Positions 1,763 through 7,160 of a stretch of 47,617 bases of DNA are shown in pieces. The notes below the pieces were generated by a model. The model saw only the letters and a list, made by a program, of their open reading frames with translations. It was not told the DNA's origin and did not search any database. Position numbers and translations under genes: made by a program. The stretch lies in contig CANQNW010000015.1 in NCBI GenBank assembly GCA_947625305.1, positions 1-47,617 on the forward strand. Reading direction: 5' to 3'. The first letter of the stretch is position 1. Every line of letters starts with the position of its first letter. The DNA comes from Candidatus Gastranaerophilales bacterium. Its GTDB lineage: Bacteria; Cyanobacteriota; Vampirovibrionia; Gastranaerophilales; Gastranaerophilaceae.

Positions 1763-2916
1763 TTAGATTTTATATTTTTGCTTAAATTTAAATTGCTCCG
1801 GCATGTAATCTTTAATTGTCCTGACATTTATTTTATCTCTATCACATGTTATAACTAAAGTTTCAGGTGTTGCATATTTTGTATTTAACATCCCCAGTGT
1901 TTTAATATTTACAACACCGTCATTATGAATAACTCCGTAATTGTCAGAAAATAAGCTGTTCCCTGCATAACAAATACAATCAATTTTTGTATCATTTCCG
2001 AATTCTTCAATTGCTTTAGAAGCGGCAAATAAAGCAGGCTCTACATACCAGCGCTTTGAAAAGTCTATTTTACCTGCCGTAAAAGTTTTTCCGTTTGCAA
2101 TTATGCTTGCAGCAATATTATGATTTGAAACCTCCGACAAATTATTCAAGTTGTAAATTTGTTGCGTTTCTTCTGCAATTTTAATAATGTCTTGTTTATT
2201 AAATCCCTTTTGTTGTGCCGATATAAGTCCTGATTGAGAAAATTTAATATCAAGTTTATCGTATGGTTTGTCAATAACATTAACTACATCATTTCTGTAA
2301 GGCAGATATTGTTCGATAGAATTTAAATTTAACGTATATTTTCCCGAATTTTCATTTTTTTCCAAAGAAACAATAGTAGTATTATTATCAAAGTACCTTG
2401 ATGTATTAAGCCAGCTTAAGCAGTCAGCGCACGGAGAAGCTGAATTTTTGTCTTCTCCTAAATTTTTATAACTGCTCATAGCTATATATTTAACTTTAAA
2501 ATTAATTGGGTTTGAAACAGAATCTTGTAATGAAGATGTTTTTAATAAATCATTATAAGCCCCGACTATAGCAGCTCTTTCACCGCAAATAGCCGAAATT
2601 TCATTTCTTGTATTGTTAAAATTAGTCGCAAGATGCCACATTCCATTAGTTAAGCCAATGTTAGATGCATAACCGGCTTCGATATATTTCCGTAATTATA
2701 ATTTTTTAATGCCAACTCATGAGCTTCAATTACTTTTTCTATTAATAAAGCTTTTTCTGCGTCTGATATTTTAATATTTTTATCTGAAACAACATTAACT
2801 TCACTTGGATTAATGTTGTATTTTTCCGTTAATTTTGCGGCAGGTTTGGTATTTATACCGCGAAATAAAATACTATTTGGTTTGTAATTATATGAAGTAA
2901 GACTTTGTATTCTCAT
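1763..2916 (-). pseudogene. Cytidine-deaminase-like gene split by a frameshift
   Basis: Two adjacent reading frames look like one gene. The upstream part (start 2916, stop 2650; 88 residues) has an N-terminus with an FRGI segment and a helix typical of the deaminase fold. The downstream part (open from about 2693, first ATG 2641, stop 1763) has the zinc site: CGERAAI and then SPCADC, as in tetrameric cytidine deaminases. The downstream frame stays open upstream of its ATG and overlaps the end of the first part, and its residues there match a deaminase strand, so a +1/-1 shift near 2660-2690 is likely. A second, degenerate deaminase-like half may form the C-terminus. It could be a real pseudogene, a sequencing error or a programmed shift. 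GAGGA precedes the 2916 start. Confidence 0.55.
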
Positions 2917-2986
2917 TTTTATCCTCTAACTCATTAAAAAATTGAAAAAAAATTTTTTGCTAATTATTAAAACGGTCTTTTTTTTA

Positions 2987-2995
2987 CCCCCCCCC
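2987..2995. repeat. C9 homopolymer tract, intergenic
   Basis: Nine consecutive C lie about 70 bp upstream of the start of the broken deaminase-like gene, flanked by T-rich and A-rich runs. In this A+T-rich genome such a tract is conspicuous. Its place is compatible with an effect on promoter spacing, but no clear promoter boxes were identified around it. Confidence 0.8.
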
Positions 2996-3047
2996 AAAAA
3001 AAATAATCAGCTATCGCATACAGGCTCATTGATTTCGCCTTCGGTTC

Positions 3048-3070
3048 AATAATTCGCTTTGTAAAACTAA
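3048..3070. repeat. Right copy of a 23-bp inverted repeat
   Basis: This is the exact reverse complement of 1731-1753. It is directly followed by an 11-G tract. Together with the left copy it bounds a roughly 1.3-kb segment that could be a mobile cassette or an invertible unit. Confidence 0.85.
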
Positions 3071-3081
3071 GGGGGGGGGGG
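3071..3081. repeat. G11 homopolymer tract, intergenic
   Basis: Eleven consecutive G directly abut the right inverted repeat. With the C9 tract at 2987 it could also pair as an 11-bp inverted repeat (the tract plus TA) around a 77-base loop. The rest of 3082-3314 holds no recognisable gene. Confidence 0.8.
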
Positions 3082-3211
3082 TACACTTCAAACACACATC
3101 CGAAATGCAGGCAGGGGAATAGTTTTAATTCAACTTTCCGTAATAATCAAACTAACCGTAAATATCAAATTACTCTTTCCTACTACACTTGCGCTCGAAC
3201 CTATTAGAAAG

Positions 3212-3230
3212 CTTTGCTTTGTGTGGTTCT
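3212..3230 (+). repeat. Dispersed 19-bp intergenic motif, copy 1
   Basis: This 19-bp stretch recurs with one mismatch at 10559-10577, in another intergenic region. No coding frame spans either copy. Confidence 0.5.
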
Positions 3231-3314
3231 TGCAAAAGGACACTTAGTTTGATTATTTGAATAACTTAGGAGCGAGTATTAAGTTTTAGATGCAGATATA
3301 AAAATATTTCAATT

Positions 3315-3329
3315 CGTCAAAATTTGTCG
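3315..3329. promoter_or_regulatory. Probable WYL-regulator operator before the WG-repeat gene
   Basis: The 15-base site CGTCAAAATTTGTCG differs by one base from the perfect palindrome at 5956-5970 beside the WYL regulator gene. A TATAAT box at 3341-3346 lies at exactly the same distance as in the divergent region, and the leader before the ATG (TATAGATTAAAGGA) is also shared with the WYL gene. The site covers the expected -35 area, which suits repression. Confidence 0.65.
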
Positions 3330-3373
3330 CATGGGTTATTTATAATTTTTTATATAGATTAAAGGAGAAAATT

Positions 3374-4126
3374 ATGAATAAAACTCAAAACAAGGTGCAC
3401 AGCGAAGCAAAAGATATTATCCAAAATGCTCAAAATGAAGCTCAAAATATTATAAATCTTGCCCTAAAAAAAGCAAGATTTATACTGAATGAAAGATCGC
3501 TTGTAAATAAAGTTCGAAAAGAAAGCGAATTGATAAAAGAACAAGCCCTAAAAGATTGTTTAAAGATAAGAGAAGAAAATTCTTTAGTCCATTCAATTTA
3601 CGGTTACCACGAAACTCATTACATCGGCTCAAATCGCTGGATTGTGCGAAATATAGAAAGTATGAAATACGGTCTTTTGAATGAAAAAGGGGAGTTTGTT
3701 GTCCCTTGTAAATATGATGATATGAATACAAGCATTGAAGAATTTCTTGAAGGTGAACAGAAGTGTATTAATGTGATTGTTGATGAATACGGATATAGCG
3801 AGGGCGAAACTTGCCGTAATTGTTTGAGCGAAAAGCGAGGGATTATGGATTTAGACGGGAACTTTATAATTGAGCCTAAGTATTCGGATTATATTTATTT
3901 TAGAGAGGGGCTTGCCGCCGTTTGCATAATTGACGAATCTCGAGCGTATGGAGTTAAATACGGCTTTATTGATGAAAATGATAATACAATTATTCCTTTT
4001 ATATATGACTATGCGCAAAATTTTATTAACGGCAAAGCACGGGTGCTGTTAAACAGTGAAGAATATTTTATTAATAAAAACGGTGACAGAATAAGCAAAA
4101 AGCTCAAAAGAGAAATTATAAGATGA
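3374..4126 (+). CDS. WG-repeat-containing protein with N-terminal coiled coil
   Basis: Residues 1-75 are rich in Ala, Glu, Lys and Gln with a heptad-like pattern and probably form a coiled coil. Residues from about 95 onward carry three degenerate WG (beta-propeller/KWG-type) repeats: YGLLNEKGEFVVPCKYDD, RGIMDLDGNFIIEPKYSD and YGFIDENDNTIIPFIYDY. WG-repeat proteins are poorly understood and many are surface or signalling proteins; no signal peptide is seen here. The start is set by AAAGGAGAAAATT just upstream. The gene overlaps the next one by four bases (ATGA). Its promoter holds a copy of the operator found beside the WYL regulator at 4958-5914, so it is probably part of that regulon. Confidence 0.75.
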   Translation: MNKTQNKVHSEAKDIIQNAQNEAQNIINLALKKARFILNERSLVNKVRKESELIKEQALKDCLKIREENSLVHSIYGYHETHYIGSNRWIVRNIESMKYGLLNEKGEFVVPCKYDDMNTSIEEFLEGEQKCINVIVDEYGYSEGETCRNCLSEKRGIMDLDGNFIIEPKYSDYIYFREGLAAVCIIDESRAYGVKYGFIDENDNTIIPFIYDYAQNFINGKARVLLNSEEYFINKNGDRISKKLKREIIR

Positions 4127-4392
4127 AAAAAATAATTTTTGCATTGCCGATATTAATAGTTTTAATTATTTTATTCTATCCCTATTCGCTAAAGAAAGAT
4201 TATAAAAAAGCGCTTAACTTTTGCACACAACAAAACCCCTCGGCAAGAGGGGAATTTGATGGTTGCATGGAAGATTATTTAATACAAAATACGAAAAACT
4301 ATGAGAAATATAGAAGAATAAAAAATTTTTGCGATTTTTTATATGATAGTGAATACGATAAAGAACAATGCGTAGATATAATTATTTTTTAA
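4123..4392 (+). CDS. Small membrane-anchored cysteine-containing protein
   Basis: The 89-residue product begins MKKIIFALPILIVLIILF, a single hydrophobic segment that can act as an uncleaved anchor or signal peptide. It continues with a polar domain holding four cysteines (CTQQ, DGCM, NFCDF, EQCVD) spaced so that two disulfides outside the cytoplasm are possible. It starts inside the stop of the WG-repeat gene and is translationally coupled to it, so the two products probably act together. No family was recognised. The downstream neighbour is convergent and ends ten bases away. Confidence 0.65.
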   Translation: MKKIIFALPILIVLIILFYPYSLKKDYKKALNFCTQQNPSARGEFDGCMEDYLIQNTKNYEKYRRIKNFCDFLYDSEYDKEQCVDIIIF

Positions 4393-4401
4393 TTATTAAA
4401 T

Positions 4402-4956
4402 TTATGAACTTTTCTTTGAATGAACTTCCCTATGAATGCACGCAGGTATATAAATCATATTATCTATTCTATTATCACCCCATCTGTTGATATGGTGTAA
4501 TTCCAAATTACATTCATCACCGCAAAAACAATCTTTATATATTTTCTTTATTTCATTATATTCATCTTTCAACCATGAAGTCTCTTTCATAAAATAATCA
4601 TACACAAGCGCTTCGCCGGCTATACATATACCTTCAAAGTCGGTGTACTTTTTTCTAAATTCATCTGCATTCAAATACCAGTTATCTTTAATCGAACGTT
4701 GAGGAATAACGGGCTTATTTCCCTTGTTTAATCTAATCCTTCCTAAATTGCTTGCAAGATATTTGTTATTGTCTTTAAGTACTTCAAATTCTTCTCCTTG
4801 CAATGTATTATTATCACAGTTTTCTGGAACTTTGTCCTCAAATTCTTTTCCAAGTTCTTCGTTATCAAAGCATTCCACTAATATACCAATCAACTTACCT
4901 TTCTCTTTAGCTATTAAAAGTTCTTTAATTTTTTTTCTTTTTTCTTTTAGTGTCAT
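4402..4956 (-). CDS. HNH endonuclease-like protein
   Basis: The C-terminal 45 residues carry the features of an HNH (beta-beta-alpha metal) nuclease: CFCGDEC, then LELHHINRWGDNRIDNM and ACIHREVH. The histidines and the Asn of the HNH signature and the zinc-ligand cysteines are present. The N-terminal two thirds contain a Lys-rich helix and a middle part that may bind DNA (NLGRIRLNKGNKPVIP resembles NUMOD-type segments). I start it at the ATG at 4956, which has AAAGGAG at ideal distance; an upstream in-frame start at 4995 would overlap the regulator gene. It starts two bases before the WYL gene stop and is surely co-transcribed with it. It could be a defence nuclease or a homing-type remnant. 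Confidence 0.65.
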   Translation of the reverse strand: MTLKEKRKKIKELLIAKEKGKLIGILVECFDNEELGKEFEDKVPENCDNNTLQGEEFEVLKDNNKYLASNLGRIRLNKGNKPVIPQRSIKDNWYLNADEFRKKYTDFEGICIAGEALVYDYFMKETSWLKDEYNEIKKIYKDCFCGDECNLELHHINRWGDNRIDNMIYIPACIHREVHSKKSS

Positions 4957-4957
4957 C

Positions 4958-5914
4958 TTAATTCTCCTTTTTTGTACTATTATACATATTTTCAACCGTT
5001 TTTATATATTCATCTCTTAAGATTTTTGGGCTTATAACCTTTACGGTTTCCCGCCATTTTAAAAGCTCCGTTATAATTTCATAACTTCCGCTTGCCCTTA
5101 GTTTTACTTGAATATTCCCATTTTCAAGAGGTGTTATTTTTTGGCTTTTGTGAAAATGATACTCCAATACATCATCCCTGGCGCTTTTATCAAACTCTAA
5201 AACTACATCCATAGCTTCACCTTGATATATCCCGAAAGATTTATCGCTAAACTCTTGGATATTAAAATTCTCATCTTTTTCAAAATAGTTATTGGTTAAC
5301 TCAATTTTCTTCAATTTTGAAATTCGATATATCCAAATATCATTAAAAAAAGGATTGTATGCCACAAGATAAATCCTCTCGCCATAAATCAGCCCGTAAG
5401 GGTTTATAAGATATTTATTATCAAGCTTAATTTGTTTTTGTGATAAAATCGCTTCATTAATTGTAGTTAAAATATCAATTGATATATCTTCTCTAAACCC
5501 GATATGAGCGCAGTAGGCTTGGTTTAAAAGCAATTCATCAACATCATTTTTTGAATATTTATCAGGATTTATTGCTTTTATTTTCTCTATAATTGCCTTT
5601 ATTTCCTTTTTCTTTACAGGCGACTTTTCAAGATTTTTACAGTACTCCAAAACCGCAAAATCATCTGAACTAAACTTAATTAAAGAATTTAAACTCCCTT
5701 TTTTTAATCTTCTTCGTTTTTTGTTATCGGTTTTATTTTGTACCGTTTCAATATAGGCGCCATATTTTTCAACAATTGCACTCATCATGCGCTCTGCCGT
5801 TCTTTTGGAACATTCAAAATGCTCTGCAATATCGTATGTTGTAAGCCCCCTATAGCTGTTTTGAAGCATAATAATCAACTCTATTATTTCATCAATTTTT
5901 TTATTTGCGCTCAT
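4958..5914 (-). CDS. WYL-domain transcriptional regulator
   Basis: The 318-residue protein has an N-terminal winged helix-turn-helix (residues 8-60, with YDIAEHFECSKRTAERMM as the likely recognition part). A WYL domain covers about residues 140-215 (INPYGLIYGERIYLVAYNP, then IWIYRISKLKKIEL), followed by the usual C-terminal extension (WCX). WYL regulators sense nucleic-acid ligands or metabolites and often control phage-defence genes, as in BrxR and CapW. The gene diverges from the gene at 6015; a perfect 15-bp palindrome lies between them, suggesting autoregulation. The leader before its ATG matches that of the WG-repeat gene. An HNH-like nuclease follows in the same operon. Confidence 0.9.
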   Translation of the reverse strand: MSANKKIDEIIELIIMLQNSYRGLTTYDIAEHFECSKRTAERMMSAIVEKYGAYIETVQNKTDNKKRRRLKKGSLNSLIKFSSDDFAVLEYCKNLEKSPVKKKEIKAIIEKIKAINPDKYSKNDVDELLLNQAYCAHIGFREDISIDILTTINEAILSQKQIKLDNKYLINPYGLIYGERIYLVAYNPFFNDIWIYRISKLKKIELTNNYFEKDENFNIQEFSDKSFGIYQGEAMDVVLEFDKSARDDVLEYHFHKSQKITPLENGNIQVKLRASGSYEIITELLKWRETVKVISPKILRDEYIKTVENMYNSTKKEN

Positions 5915-5955
5915 AATTTTTCCTTTAATCTATATTTTATTTTATAACATAATAG

Positions 5956-5970
5956 CGACAAAATTTGTCG
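5956..5970. promoter_or_regulatory. Palindromic operator in the divergent WYL promoter region
   Basis: CGACAAAATTTGTCG is a palindrome with 7-bp arms and one central base. Rightward, a TATAAT box at 5982-5987 lies at the same spacing as the copy at 3315-3329. Leftward, a TATAAA box lies about nine bases from the site in front of the WYL gene. One dimeric regulator could thus control both directions. Confidence 0.7.
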
Positions 5971-6014
5971 TATTATAATCATATAATTTTTTTGTCAGTT
6001 AAAAGGAGGTAAAT

Positions 6015-6437
6015 ATGAAAATGACAACAAAGGATTTTTTAAACAGGTATGATGAATTTATGAATGAGAAAGATAATTCAAACGAACTTGATACACCTAT
6101 TCTAAACATAGCTAAAGCGGTCAAAAAACCAAGCCTTATTTCAATTGATGAAAAAAAGTTTAAAAATTATTTCAAAAAATCGAAATTTGTTGAATTTGAT
6201 TATACAAAGGTTAAAAATGATGCTTTTGAAATCGTGAAAGCATTAAAAATCTATTCTCTGTGGAATAAAGCGGAATTTACCTGTTTTATAATAAGCCATG
6301 GGGATAAATTCGGCTCAGTTGATGTTGCTGAAATTATACAGGTGTTACAAAAATATTTTAACAATTTTCAAATAGTATCTTTTGAAGATGACAGCTTTAA
6401 CGACGAAATAGGACTCGGCTTTTATAAGGTTTATTAG
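6015..6437 (+). CDS. Hypothetical protein in the WYL regulon
   Basis: This 140-residue soluble protein matches no family that I recognise. It begins with a polar N-terminal helix, has a Lys-rich middle, and ends in an alternating alpha/beta stretch (TCFIISHGDKFGSVDVAE, then a helix, then NFQIVSFEDDSF) that looks like a small globular domain. No signal peptide, membrane segment or catalytic motif stands out. AAAAGGAGG precedes its ATG. It is divergent from the WYL regulator and its promoter carries the palindromic operator, so it is likely a target of that regulator. A role in defence or stress is only an inference from this context. Confidence 0.6.
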   Translation: MKMTTKDFLNRYDEFMNEKDNSNELDTPILNIAKAVKKPSLISIDEKKFKNYFKKSKFVEFDYTKVKNDAFEIVKALKIYSLWNKAEFTCFIISHGDKFGSVDVAEIIQVLQKYFNNFQIVSFEDDSFNDEIGLGFYKVY

Positions 6438-7160
6438 TAAATTTAAAAAACTTTTGATAAAATTTTGTTACTTATAAGTCCCATAAAAGTCCAATTCGAC
6501 CGTTTTGGAATAAAGCTAATCAAATGCCTTCCGACTTGATATGTGTTAGTGTTATTAGGCAAATATGCCAAGTTAATATTACAAAACTTCCGACCAAAAC
6601 GGACTTTAAATATTTTGTCAGTCAATTTAGGATTTTTTATCAATCTCCGCAGGAAGGATTTGAACCGGAAAAACATATTTTTTCTTAATATAACTATATT
6701 TTAGCCAGACAATAATATGTAATCCAAACGAACCCTCGCCCTTTCAGATATTTGATAAAATAACCGAAAGTCCTTATATTTAGCAGTAAATTATAAAATA
6801 ATTTACCTATGTCATATTTTTATTATAACGTGCTAAAACCCTTTTGTAAACCTGTTTTTAGCGATAAAAACAGGACAATTTTCAAACGGGTTCTATCGTA
6901 ACCCCTGCATGAAAAATCTCGATTTTACCAATCGCTGAAACTCAATGTTTTCTGTCCTGAATGAGACAAAGTAAAAAATAATTTGAAAATTTTATTTTAA
7001 TTTACAACAATTTTATAGATAAATTTTACATAATCATATTGTAATATTTATGCAAGAATATCTACAATAAAATATATTATTTCTAATAAAAATTAATGTA
7101 ATTTTATTTCGCAAAAATTTATGATAAACTTGTAATGTAATATTATTCAAGGAGTGTTTT
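6438..7160. other. Gene-free stretch with inverted repeats
   Basis: No convincing gene lies here. An imperfect inverted repeat pairs the area near 6485-6508 with 6594-6610 (AAAGTCC and GTTTTGG halves, one copy with nine extra bases), enclosing a short GGCA/TGCC hairpin near 6560. A weak open frame on the minus strand at 6443-6676 covers this palindrome-rich part and has no ribosome site, so I do not call it. A perfect hairpin is listed separately. The part from 6990 is very A+T-rich and must contain the promoter of the restriction-modification operon. Confidence 0.5.
6851..6874. repeat. Perfect 10-bp hairpin, possible ncRNA or terminator element
   Basis: CCTGTTTTTA and TAAAAACAGG flank a GCGA loop. 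There is no proper U-run after it on either strand, so a simple intrinsic terminator is not clear. It could be part of a small structured RNA or of an operator. Confidence 0.45.

Follow-up and report, generated by a model that had tools for sequence, protein, structure and literature searches.

What kind of switch is formed when a WYL regulator and the genes around it share a single palindromic operator, and what does that switch turn on? The question is raised by a 47,617-nucleotide stretch of DNA from a Candidatus Gastranaerophilales bacterium, referred to below as the window. This stretch is contig C15 in a genome of 1.97 Mb that is 97% complete, and it carries a compact cluster of five genes that encode a WYL regulator, an HNH-like protein, a WG-repeat protein with its small membrane partner and, divergently oriented, a protein of 140 residues. 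An earlier note, made from the sequence alone, had proposed that one operator controls three transcripts here, that the regulator is of the CapW/BrxR type and that the product of the divergent gene is unknown. The evidence presented below favours, with a probability of roughly two in three, a mobile DriD-type activator responsive to single-stranded DNA (ssDNA) and DNA damage that would switch on a division inhibitor related to one half of FtsZ, together with the HNH-like protein and the WG/membrane pair.

Operator, promoters and regulator

The five genes are arranged in three transcription units (Table 1). The WG and small membrane genes, joined by an ATG/TGA overlap, form the first (3374-4392), the WYL and HNH-like genes the second (minus strand, 5914 to 4402, with the HNH start one base past the WYL stop) and the divergent gene the third (6015-6437); the WG and HNH units converge tail to tail. 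The palindrome that the earlier note had placed between the WYL gene and the divergent open reading frame is indeed present there and is common to both promoters, and its one-mismatch copy precedes the WG gene as described. Allowing up to two mismatches these are the only two matches in the window, against 0.14 expected, and no further site with zero or one mismatch is found anywhere in the 1.97-Mb genome. In each of the three promoters the -10 hexamer starts exactly 11 bp past GTCG, bearing out the equal spacing that had been noticed, and the leader TATAGATTAAAGGA is, as had been stated, common to the WG and WYL transcripts. The pattern TTTGTCG-N11-TAWAAT has exactly three exact matches in the genome, namely the WG, WYL and 140-residue gene promoters, while the strict form CGAC-N7-GTCG-N11-TANNNT is fitted by the central operator only. 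A genome-wide regulon was rejected on these grounds, there being neither an additional 0-1-mismatch site nor an exact promoter pattern elsewhere in this genome.

The same promoter architecture extends to relatives of the cluster. In a set of 33 aligned promoters the match to TATAAT is 5.42 of 6 at an offset of 11, the next best offset reaching 3.67, and the best -35 hexamer averages 1.6 of 6; orthologous promoters in this set are not independent, but the agreement holds for promoters of three kinds and for two WYL clades that have diverged from each other. The site thus overlaps a poor -35 at constant distance to the -10, as expected of DriD-type activators. A better hexamer at another offset is found in two of the 33 (the WYL promoters of loci L135 and L123), and in several others offset 11 ties with another offset. 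For L123 the script had picked an upstream site; the nearer one, CGACAAAATTTGACG, has TATTAT at offset 11. WYL and WG/coiled-coil promoters of a deeper clade, described below, mostly read ACGAC-TCTTTTT-GTCGTA or near variants, again 11 bases before the -10. Searching 12 genomes with CGAC-N7-GTCG-N11-TANNNT gave 23 matches (7 for a reversed control pattern), 21 of them beside a DriD-like WYL gene, in the clusters described here and in G168 also at a second WYL gene; the other two are at G066:C5 and G030:C1. With 21 of 23 matches beside such a gene, and with the strict form confined to the central operator in the window's own genome, the regulon is therefore local. There is strong support, drawn in part from conservation in other species and genera, for a WYL regulon in which one operator governs three transcripts.

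In order to place the regulator it is useful to recall what is known of DriD. In Caulobacter crescentus this protein activates didA, which codes for a division inhibitor, and bapE, which codes for an endonuclease; the promoter region of DriD itself works in both directions (PMC12340889, PMC4211646). It is activated by ssDNA and binds ATACGAC(N7)GTCGTAT over the -35 region, at a constant distance from the -10, in promoters with a poor -35 (PMC12340889). The WYL protein of the window matches only DriD chains in the PDB (E = 2e-27 as a single sequence and 2e-55 as a profile), with residues 5-306 aligned and the winged helix-turn-helix, WYL and WCX domains covered at full length, and up to E = 10 no CapW/BrxR chain is matched. 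The cluster operator equals the published DriD consensus core, GAC-N7-GTC (PMC12340889). Moreover, in the three DriD promoters printed in that paper the sole position near the -10, after GxCGC, that is G in all is the ninth; by our own reading, if this position is G-14, the DriD -10 starts ten bases after GxCGC and hence eleven after GxCG, as in the cluster.

The divergent gene and its relation to FtsZ

The 140-residue protein proves to be a homologue of FtsZ over the T7 loop and the C-terminal subdomain, a result that was not apparent from the single sequence, for which scans against Pfam, PADLOC, NCBIfam and PHROG gave nothing useful. Two homologues from the deeper clade match Pfam FtsZ_C with E values (2.2e-5 and 0.0022) that fall just short of the family cut-off, and a profile of the family finds the FtsZ of G101:C1 (E = 3e-8) and a degenerate FtsZ-like protein in G168:C3 (E = 2e-9). 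Against the PDB the same profile retrieves mostly FtsZ, at E = 0.001 and worse; a single match scores better, to a subunit of an archaeal RNA polymerase, but it is short and probably spurious. Alignment by hhalign with the FtsZ of the same genome and two relatives gives 96.6% and E = 5.9e-10, setting profile positions 34-140 on FtsZ 206-318. Asp45, which is one of four invariant residues and is invariant in nine sequences, falls in this alignment on the T7-loop Asp of FtsZ. The earlier designation of the protein as wholly unknown was abandoned, since its relatives and profiles link it to the C-terminal half of FtsZ.

Structure prediction points the same way. The order of elements in the AlphaFold model is that of the FtsZ C-terminal half (T7-H8-S7-H9-S8-H10-S9-S10), Foldseek searches return FtsZ with E values from 1.9e-5 (all 50 among the matches listed), and VIA-align superimposes residues 41-140 on FtsZ ~197-315, with Z up to 7.5 to FtsZ, TubZ and CetZ. 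Chorismate mutases follow close behind in the latter comparison, and therefore the fold alone would not decide the identity of the protein. The N-terminal GTPase domain is absent from the 140 residues, so that the protein is not an FtsZ but its lower half only; a complete FtsZ is encoded on contig C5 of the same genome. The degenerate FtsZ-like protein of 257 residues (G168:C3 21444-21833; L147 1468-2241) seems to be without the glycine motifs that bind GTP, and it may represent an intermediate stage from FtsZ to the FtsZ half.

With its T7 face but no GTPase domain, such a protein could attach to the nucleotide face of FtsZ and so halt the growth of the filament, although stabilisation of FtsZ or an unrelated role is possible as well. 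Small proteins that stop division at FtsZ include SulA, MciZ and CbtA, to which the 140-residue protein would be similar in its presumed effect and from which it differs in being a homologue of the T7 loop and C-terminal subdomain of FtsZ. We know of no FtsZ-directed inhibitor of this kind that is built from FtsZ itself, and the open-access literature yielded no FtsZ-derived inhibitor, which is weak evidence as only open papers were covered.

The HNH-like protein is a putative nuclease. Residues H154, H155, N162, D165, N166 and H175 are invariant in 9 relatives, and the residues of the H-H...N...H core among them are placed by the model on two strands and a helix. The protein of the window has no Pfam match itself, and its best Foldseek matches are HNH nucleases, with weak scores (E = 0.19 or worse); the proteins that occupy this slot in other genomes can be assigned clearly to HNH_3/NUMOD4, and there are matches to phage HNH families as well. 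Relatives of the small membrane protein adjoin DriD-like WYL genes in other genera.

Table 1. Positions in the window of the cluster's operators, -10 hexamers and genes
Feature	Position	Strand	Remarks
Central operator CGACAAAATTTGTCG	5956-5970		Perfect 15-bp palindrome CGACAAA-A-TTTGTCG, DriD-type CGAC-N7-GTCG
Operator copy CGTCAAAATTTGTCG	3315-3329	+	One mismatch; precedes WG gene
-10 hexamer TATAAT, WG promoter	3341-3346	+	11 bp past GTCG
-10 hexamer TAAAAT, WYL promoter	5939-5944	-	11 bp past GTCG
-10 hexamer TATAAT, promoter of 140-residue (FtsZ-half) gene	5982-5987	+	11 bp past GTCG
WG-repeat protein, N-terminal coiled coil, 250 residues	3374-4126	+	Pfam WG_beta_rep 1.1e-23
Small single-transmembrane protein, 89 residues, four conserved cysteines	4123-4392	+	Start overlaps WG stop
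HNH-like protein, NUMOD4-like middle, 184 residues	4402-4956	-	Directly downstream of WYL
WYL regulator, HTH-WYL-WCX, DriD-type, 318 residues	4958-5914	-	PDB match to DriD
140-residue protein, homologue of FtsZ T7 loop and C-terminal subdomain	6015-6437	+	Profile, hhalign, Foldseek

Recurrence and movement of the cluster

Conserved linkage of the genes had been named beforehand as a point on which the proposed regulon would stand or fall, and the block of five is kept: it recurs in five more genomes of the genus, in some of them truncated or decayed, and in two other genera. In G027 all five genes lie on one 3.1-kb contig; in G030 they are split over two contigs that meet inside the WYL gene; in G029 the FtsZ-half gene and the start of WYL are found at a contig end. 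In G040 the WG gene has been lost, its promoter now abutting the small membrane gene, and the 140-residue gene is cut after residue 27, and in G024 the HNH reading frame is intact and the remaining genes are in fragments. Outside the genus the set is complete in G122, whereas in G066 WG, WYL and the 140-residue gene are present but the HNH gene has been replaced by another, only a remnant of the original being left. The operator between WYL and the 140-residue gene is intact wherever that stretch exists and is usually extended at both ends by one base pair (GCGACAAAATTTGTCGC), while that of the WG gene is kept in G030 and G066 (CGTC...) and in G040 (CGTCATAGTTTGTCG) and is weaker in G122 (CATC...).

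The WG proteins are 92-97% identical in G066, G122 and G027, the two from other genera standing at 95% (G122) and 92% (G066), as against 73% in the congener G030, and pieces of the cluster have therefore moved horizontally. A deeper clade, with WYL proteins 51-57% identical, is found in further genera (G135, G268, G191, G171, G247, G156 and G213), where the genes nearby encode proteins with WG repeats or a coiled coil, NUMOD4/HNH proteins, relatives of the window's small membrane protein and, in three cases, relatives of the 140-residue protein. Relatives of the window's genome in the collection of named genomes are metagenome-assembled genomes of Candidatus Gastranaerophilales with isolate names starting with 'Lapin', which we read as a rabbit-gut source.

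A viral origin was rejected, viral contigs containing no relatives of the WYL, HNH-like or FtsZ-half protein. No clear terminal repeat bounds the cluster inside 2600-7160; short repeats located at other places in relatives match the sequence that precedes the WG promoter. The side of the cluster that carries the 140-residue gene lies near tRNA 3' ends in three genomes (L040, L043 and L118; Arg, Gln and Phe, respectively), and a tRNA-3'-end-like stretch occurs in the window at 6640-6675, where ARAGORN calls no gene; these observations hint at integration at tRNA ends. The contigs of G030 (C15:1 / C1:1) and G029 (C84:7907) break inside WYL, with coverage ending at the same codon (38), which suggests strain variation or a repeat at this point.

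Mechanism and competing explanations

In the mechanism that we favour a WYL dimer would bind CGAC-N7-GTCG at three promoters in which a good -10 is not accompanied by a -35. It would thereby occupy the -35 region and from there recruit the housekeeping RNA polymerase. If DriD and PafBC are a guide, ssDNA arising during DNA damage or phage replication would be the trigger. Three outputs would follow: the FtsZ bottom-half protein, which would probably prevent division by docking on FtsZ or capping it; the HNH-like protein, co-transcribed with the regulator; and the coiled-coil/WG-repeat protein with the small cysteine-rich membrane protein. A more specific form of this proposal, in which a mobile ssDNA-triggered checkpoint uses the T7-loop/C-terminal half of FtsZ as an on-demand decoy that caps FtsZ filaments, under a DriD-type activator acting on its own three promoters only and serving either as a damage checkpoint or in anti-phage arrest, is tentative and falls somewhat short of even odds.

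So constituted, the cluster would be analogous to DriD with DidA and BapE. The architecture of the WYL activator, the CGAC-N7-GTCG site, its position over a missing -35 at fixed distance from the -10, the bidirectional promoter of the regulator and the presence of a division inhibitor and a nuclease (both predicted ones here) among the targets are all features of the DriD regulon (DriD; didA, bapE, CCNA_03891/01149). Unlike that regulon, the one described here is local, comprising three promoters, is mobile and is found in Gastranaerophilales; its presumed division gene encodes an FtsZ half, whereas DidA acts through FtsN; its bidirectional promoter has an in-register -10 both ways; and neither recJ nor dnaG is included. 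The mycobacterial WYL protein PafBC is likewise activated by ssDNA, with a -26 element replacing the normal -35 contact (PMC11804915), but it is a heterodimer that needs RNA polymerase in order to bind DNA, while the cluster has one gene and a full palindrome. We conclude that the closest counterpart is the DriD regulon and not CapW/BrxR, the new element being the FtsZ half placed under this control.

Several findings weigh against the favoured mechanism. Residues Gly18, Ala20 and Pro125, through which DriD contacts RNA polymerase, are not kept (Asn, Tyr and Asn here), and from Arg120-122 one basic residue is retained; the partners may have co-evolved. A paralogue clade of the genus (L053), with a G[AT]C-N7-G[AT]C site at mostly the same spacing, is closer to DriD (149.8 vs 99.5 bits). 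With this clade nearer to DriD and the polymerase contacts mostly not kept we speak of a 'DriD-type' regulator rather than of DriD. In addition, the regulon is without repair genes, the 140-residue protein of the window alone misses Pfam FtsZ_C and its AlphaFold model is weak (predicted local distance difference test score, pLDDT, of 60).

Among the competing explanations the one that survives best differs from the favoured mechanism, with which it overlaps, in purpose only: the DriD-type activator would sense ssDNA from phage replication and respond with division arrest and the HNH nuclease, giving abortive infection or a growth pause. The distribution of the cluster is patchy and mobile, as judged from the WG identities above, the HNH slot has been swapped in G066, some related clusters carry a retron-like reverse transcriptase and a DnaB-like ATPase, and defence genes adjoin the cluster. 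The restriction-modification neighbour on which the earlier note had drawn is real, consisting of a Dam-type methyltransferase and an AlwI-family nuclease, but it carries no operator copy and is not kept in two relatives, its position being taken in G030 by an HEC-05/DUF262 candidate defence gene beside the WG promoter (L039 2803-4578; PADLOC E = 3.7e-219) and in G040 by another protein, judged from its sequence to be a methyltransferase. Since PADLOC has no match for the WG, small membrane, HNH or FtsZ-half protein and copies are lacking among viral contigs, we consider an anti-phage role possible though rather doubtful.

It is unlikely that the regulator is instead a CapW/BrxR-like repressor that silences a toxic defence module until a ligand produced on phage infection releases it. 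Such a protein would share the HTH-WYL-WCX architecture and, like known CapW/BrxR regulators, would adjoin defence genes, as found in the window and in G030, and an operator over the -35 could also serve a repressor by blocking RNA polymerase. However, CapW binds at sites overlapping the -10 and BrxR at a site further downstream, whereas here the site ends 11 bp upstream of the -10, in constant phase, and there is no -35 to be blocked; moreover, the defence neighbours differ between genomes and have no operator copy. Because its only solved relatives are DriD, and because it has a DriD site upstream of the -10 over a missing -35, the regulator is taken to be an activator rather than a repressor, and the CapW/BrxR assignment of the earlier note was rejected. 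Finally, that the HNH/NUMOD4-like gene is a homing-type selfish nuclease hitch-hiking with the regulator, the other genes being bystanders, is very improbable: relatives at the same position do match HNH_3/NUMOD4 and, weakly, a homing-endonuclease model, but the WYL, WG/coiled-coil, small membrane and FtsZ-half genes recur together with the same operator at 51-57% WYL identity, and in related clusters, L139 for example, WYL is not accompanied by an adjacent HNH gene.

DriD serves as the model for homodimeric WYL activators, and its regulon was worked out in Caulobacter. If the favoured mechanism is correct, the promoter logic of DriD exists in gut Gastranaerophilales as a transferable cassette, and an FtsZ inhibitor has been made from the lower half of FtsZ itself. 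The string CGAC-N7-GTCG-N11-TATAAT would provide a sequence rule for finding such regulons, and our comparison suggests that operator position may separate activator-type from repressor-type WYL proteins. In this connection the idea of repressor-type operators for WYL paralogues of 37% identity was dropped, as most of them, when A or T is accepted at the third base, show G[AT]C-N7-G[AT]C 11 bp before TATAAT. Another WYL clade (L021-L027, ~33% identity) has a GAC-N7-GTC-like site upstream of WYL and, in four of seven cases, its best -10-like hexamer ~17 instead of 11 bases downstream, perhaps representing another promoter class.

The retron-like reverse transcriptases mentioned above (PADLOC RT_II-A, E ~1e-50; L139 10487-12132 and L123 5680-7385, both on the minus strand) are in an operon with the DnaB-like ATPase; this may be a defence operon of the retron type that is linked to a DriD-like cluster. 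In the window itself a deaminase-like protein with weak cytidine deaminase matches is encoded at 1763-2916 on the minus strand and appears to be split into two frames near 2645, probably by a frameshift. Between this gene and the WG promoter are long C and G homopolymer runs (2985-2995 and 3070-3082), which are possible slippage sites.

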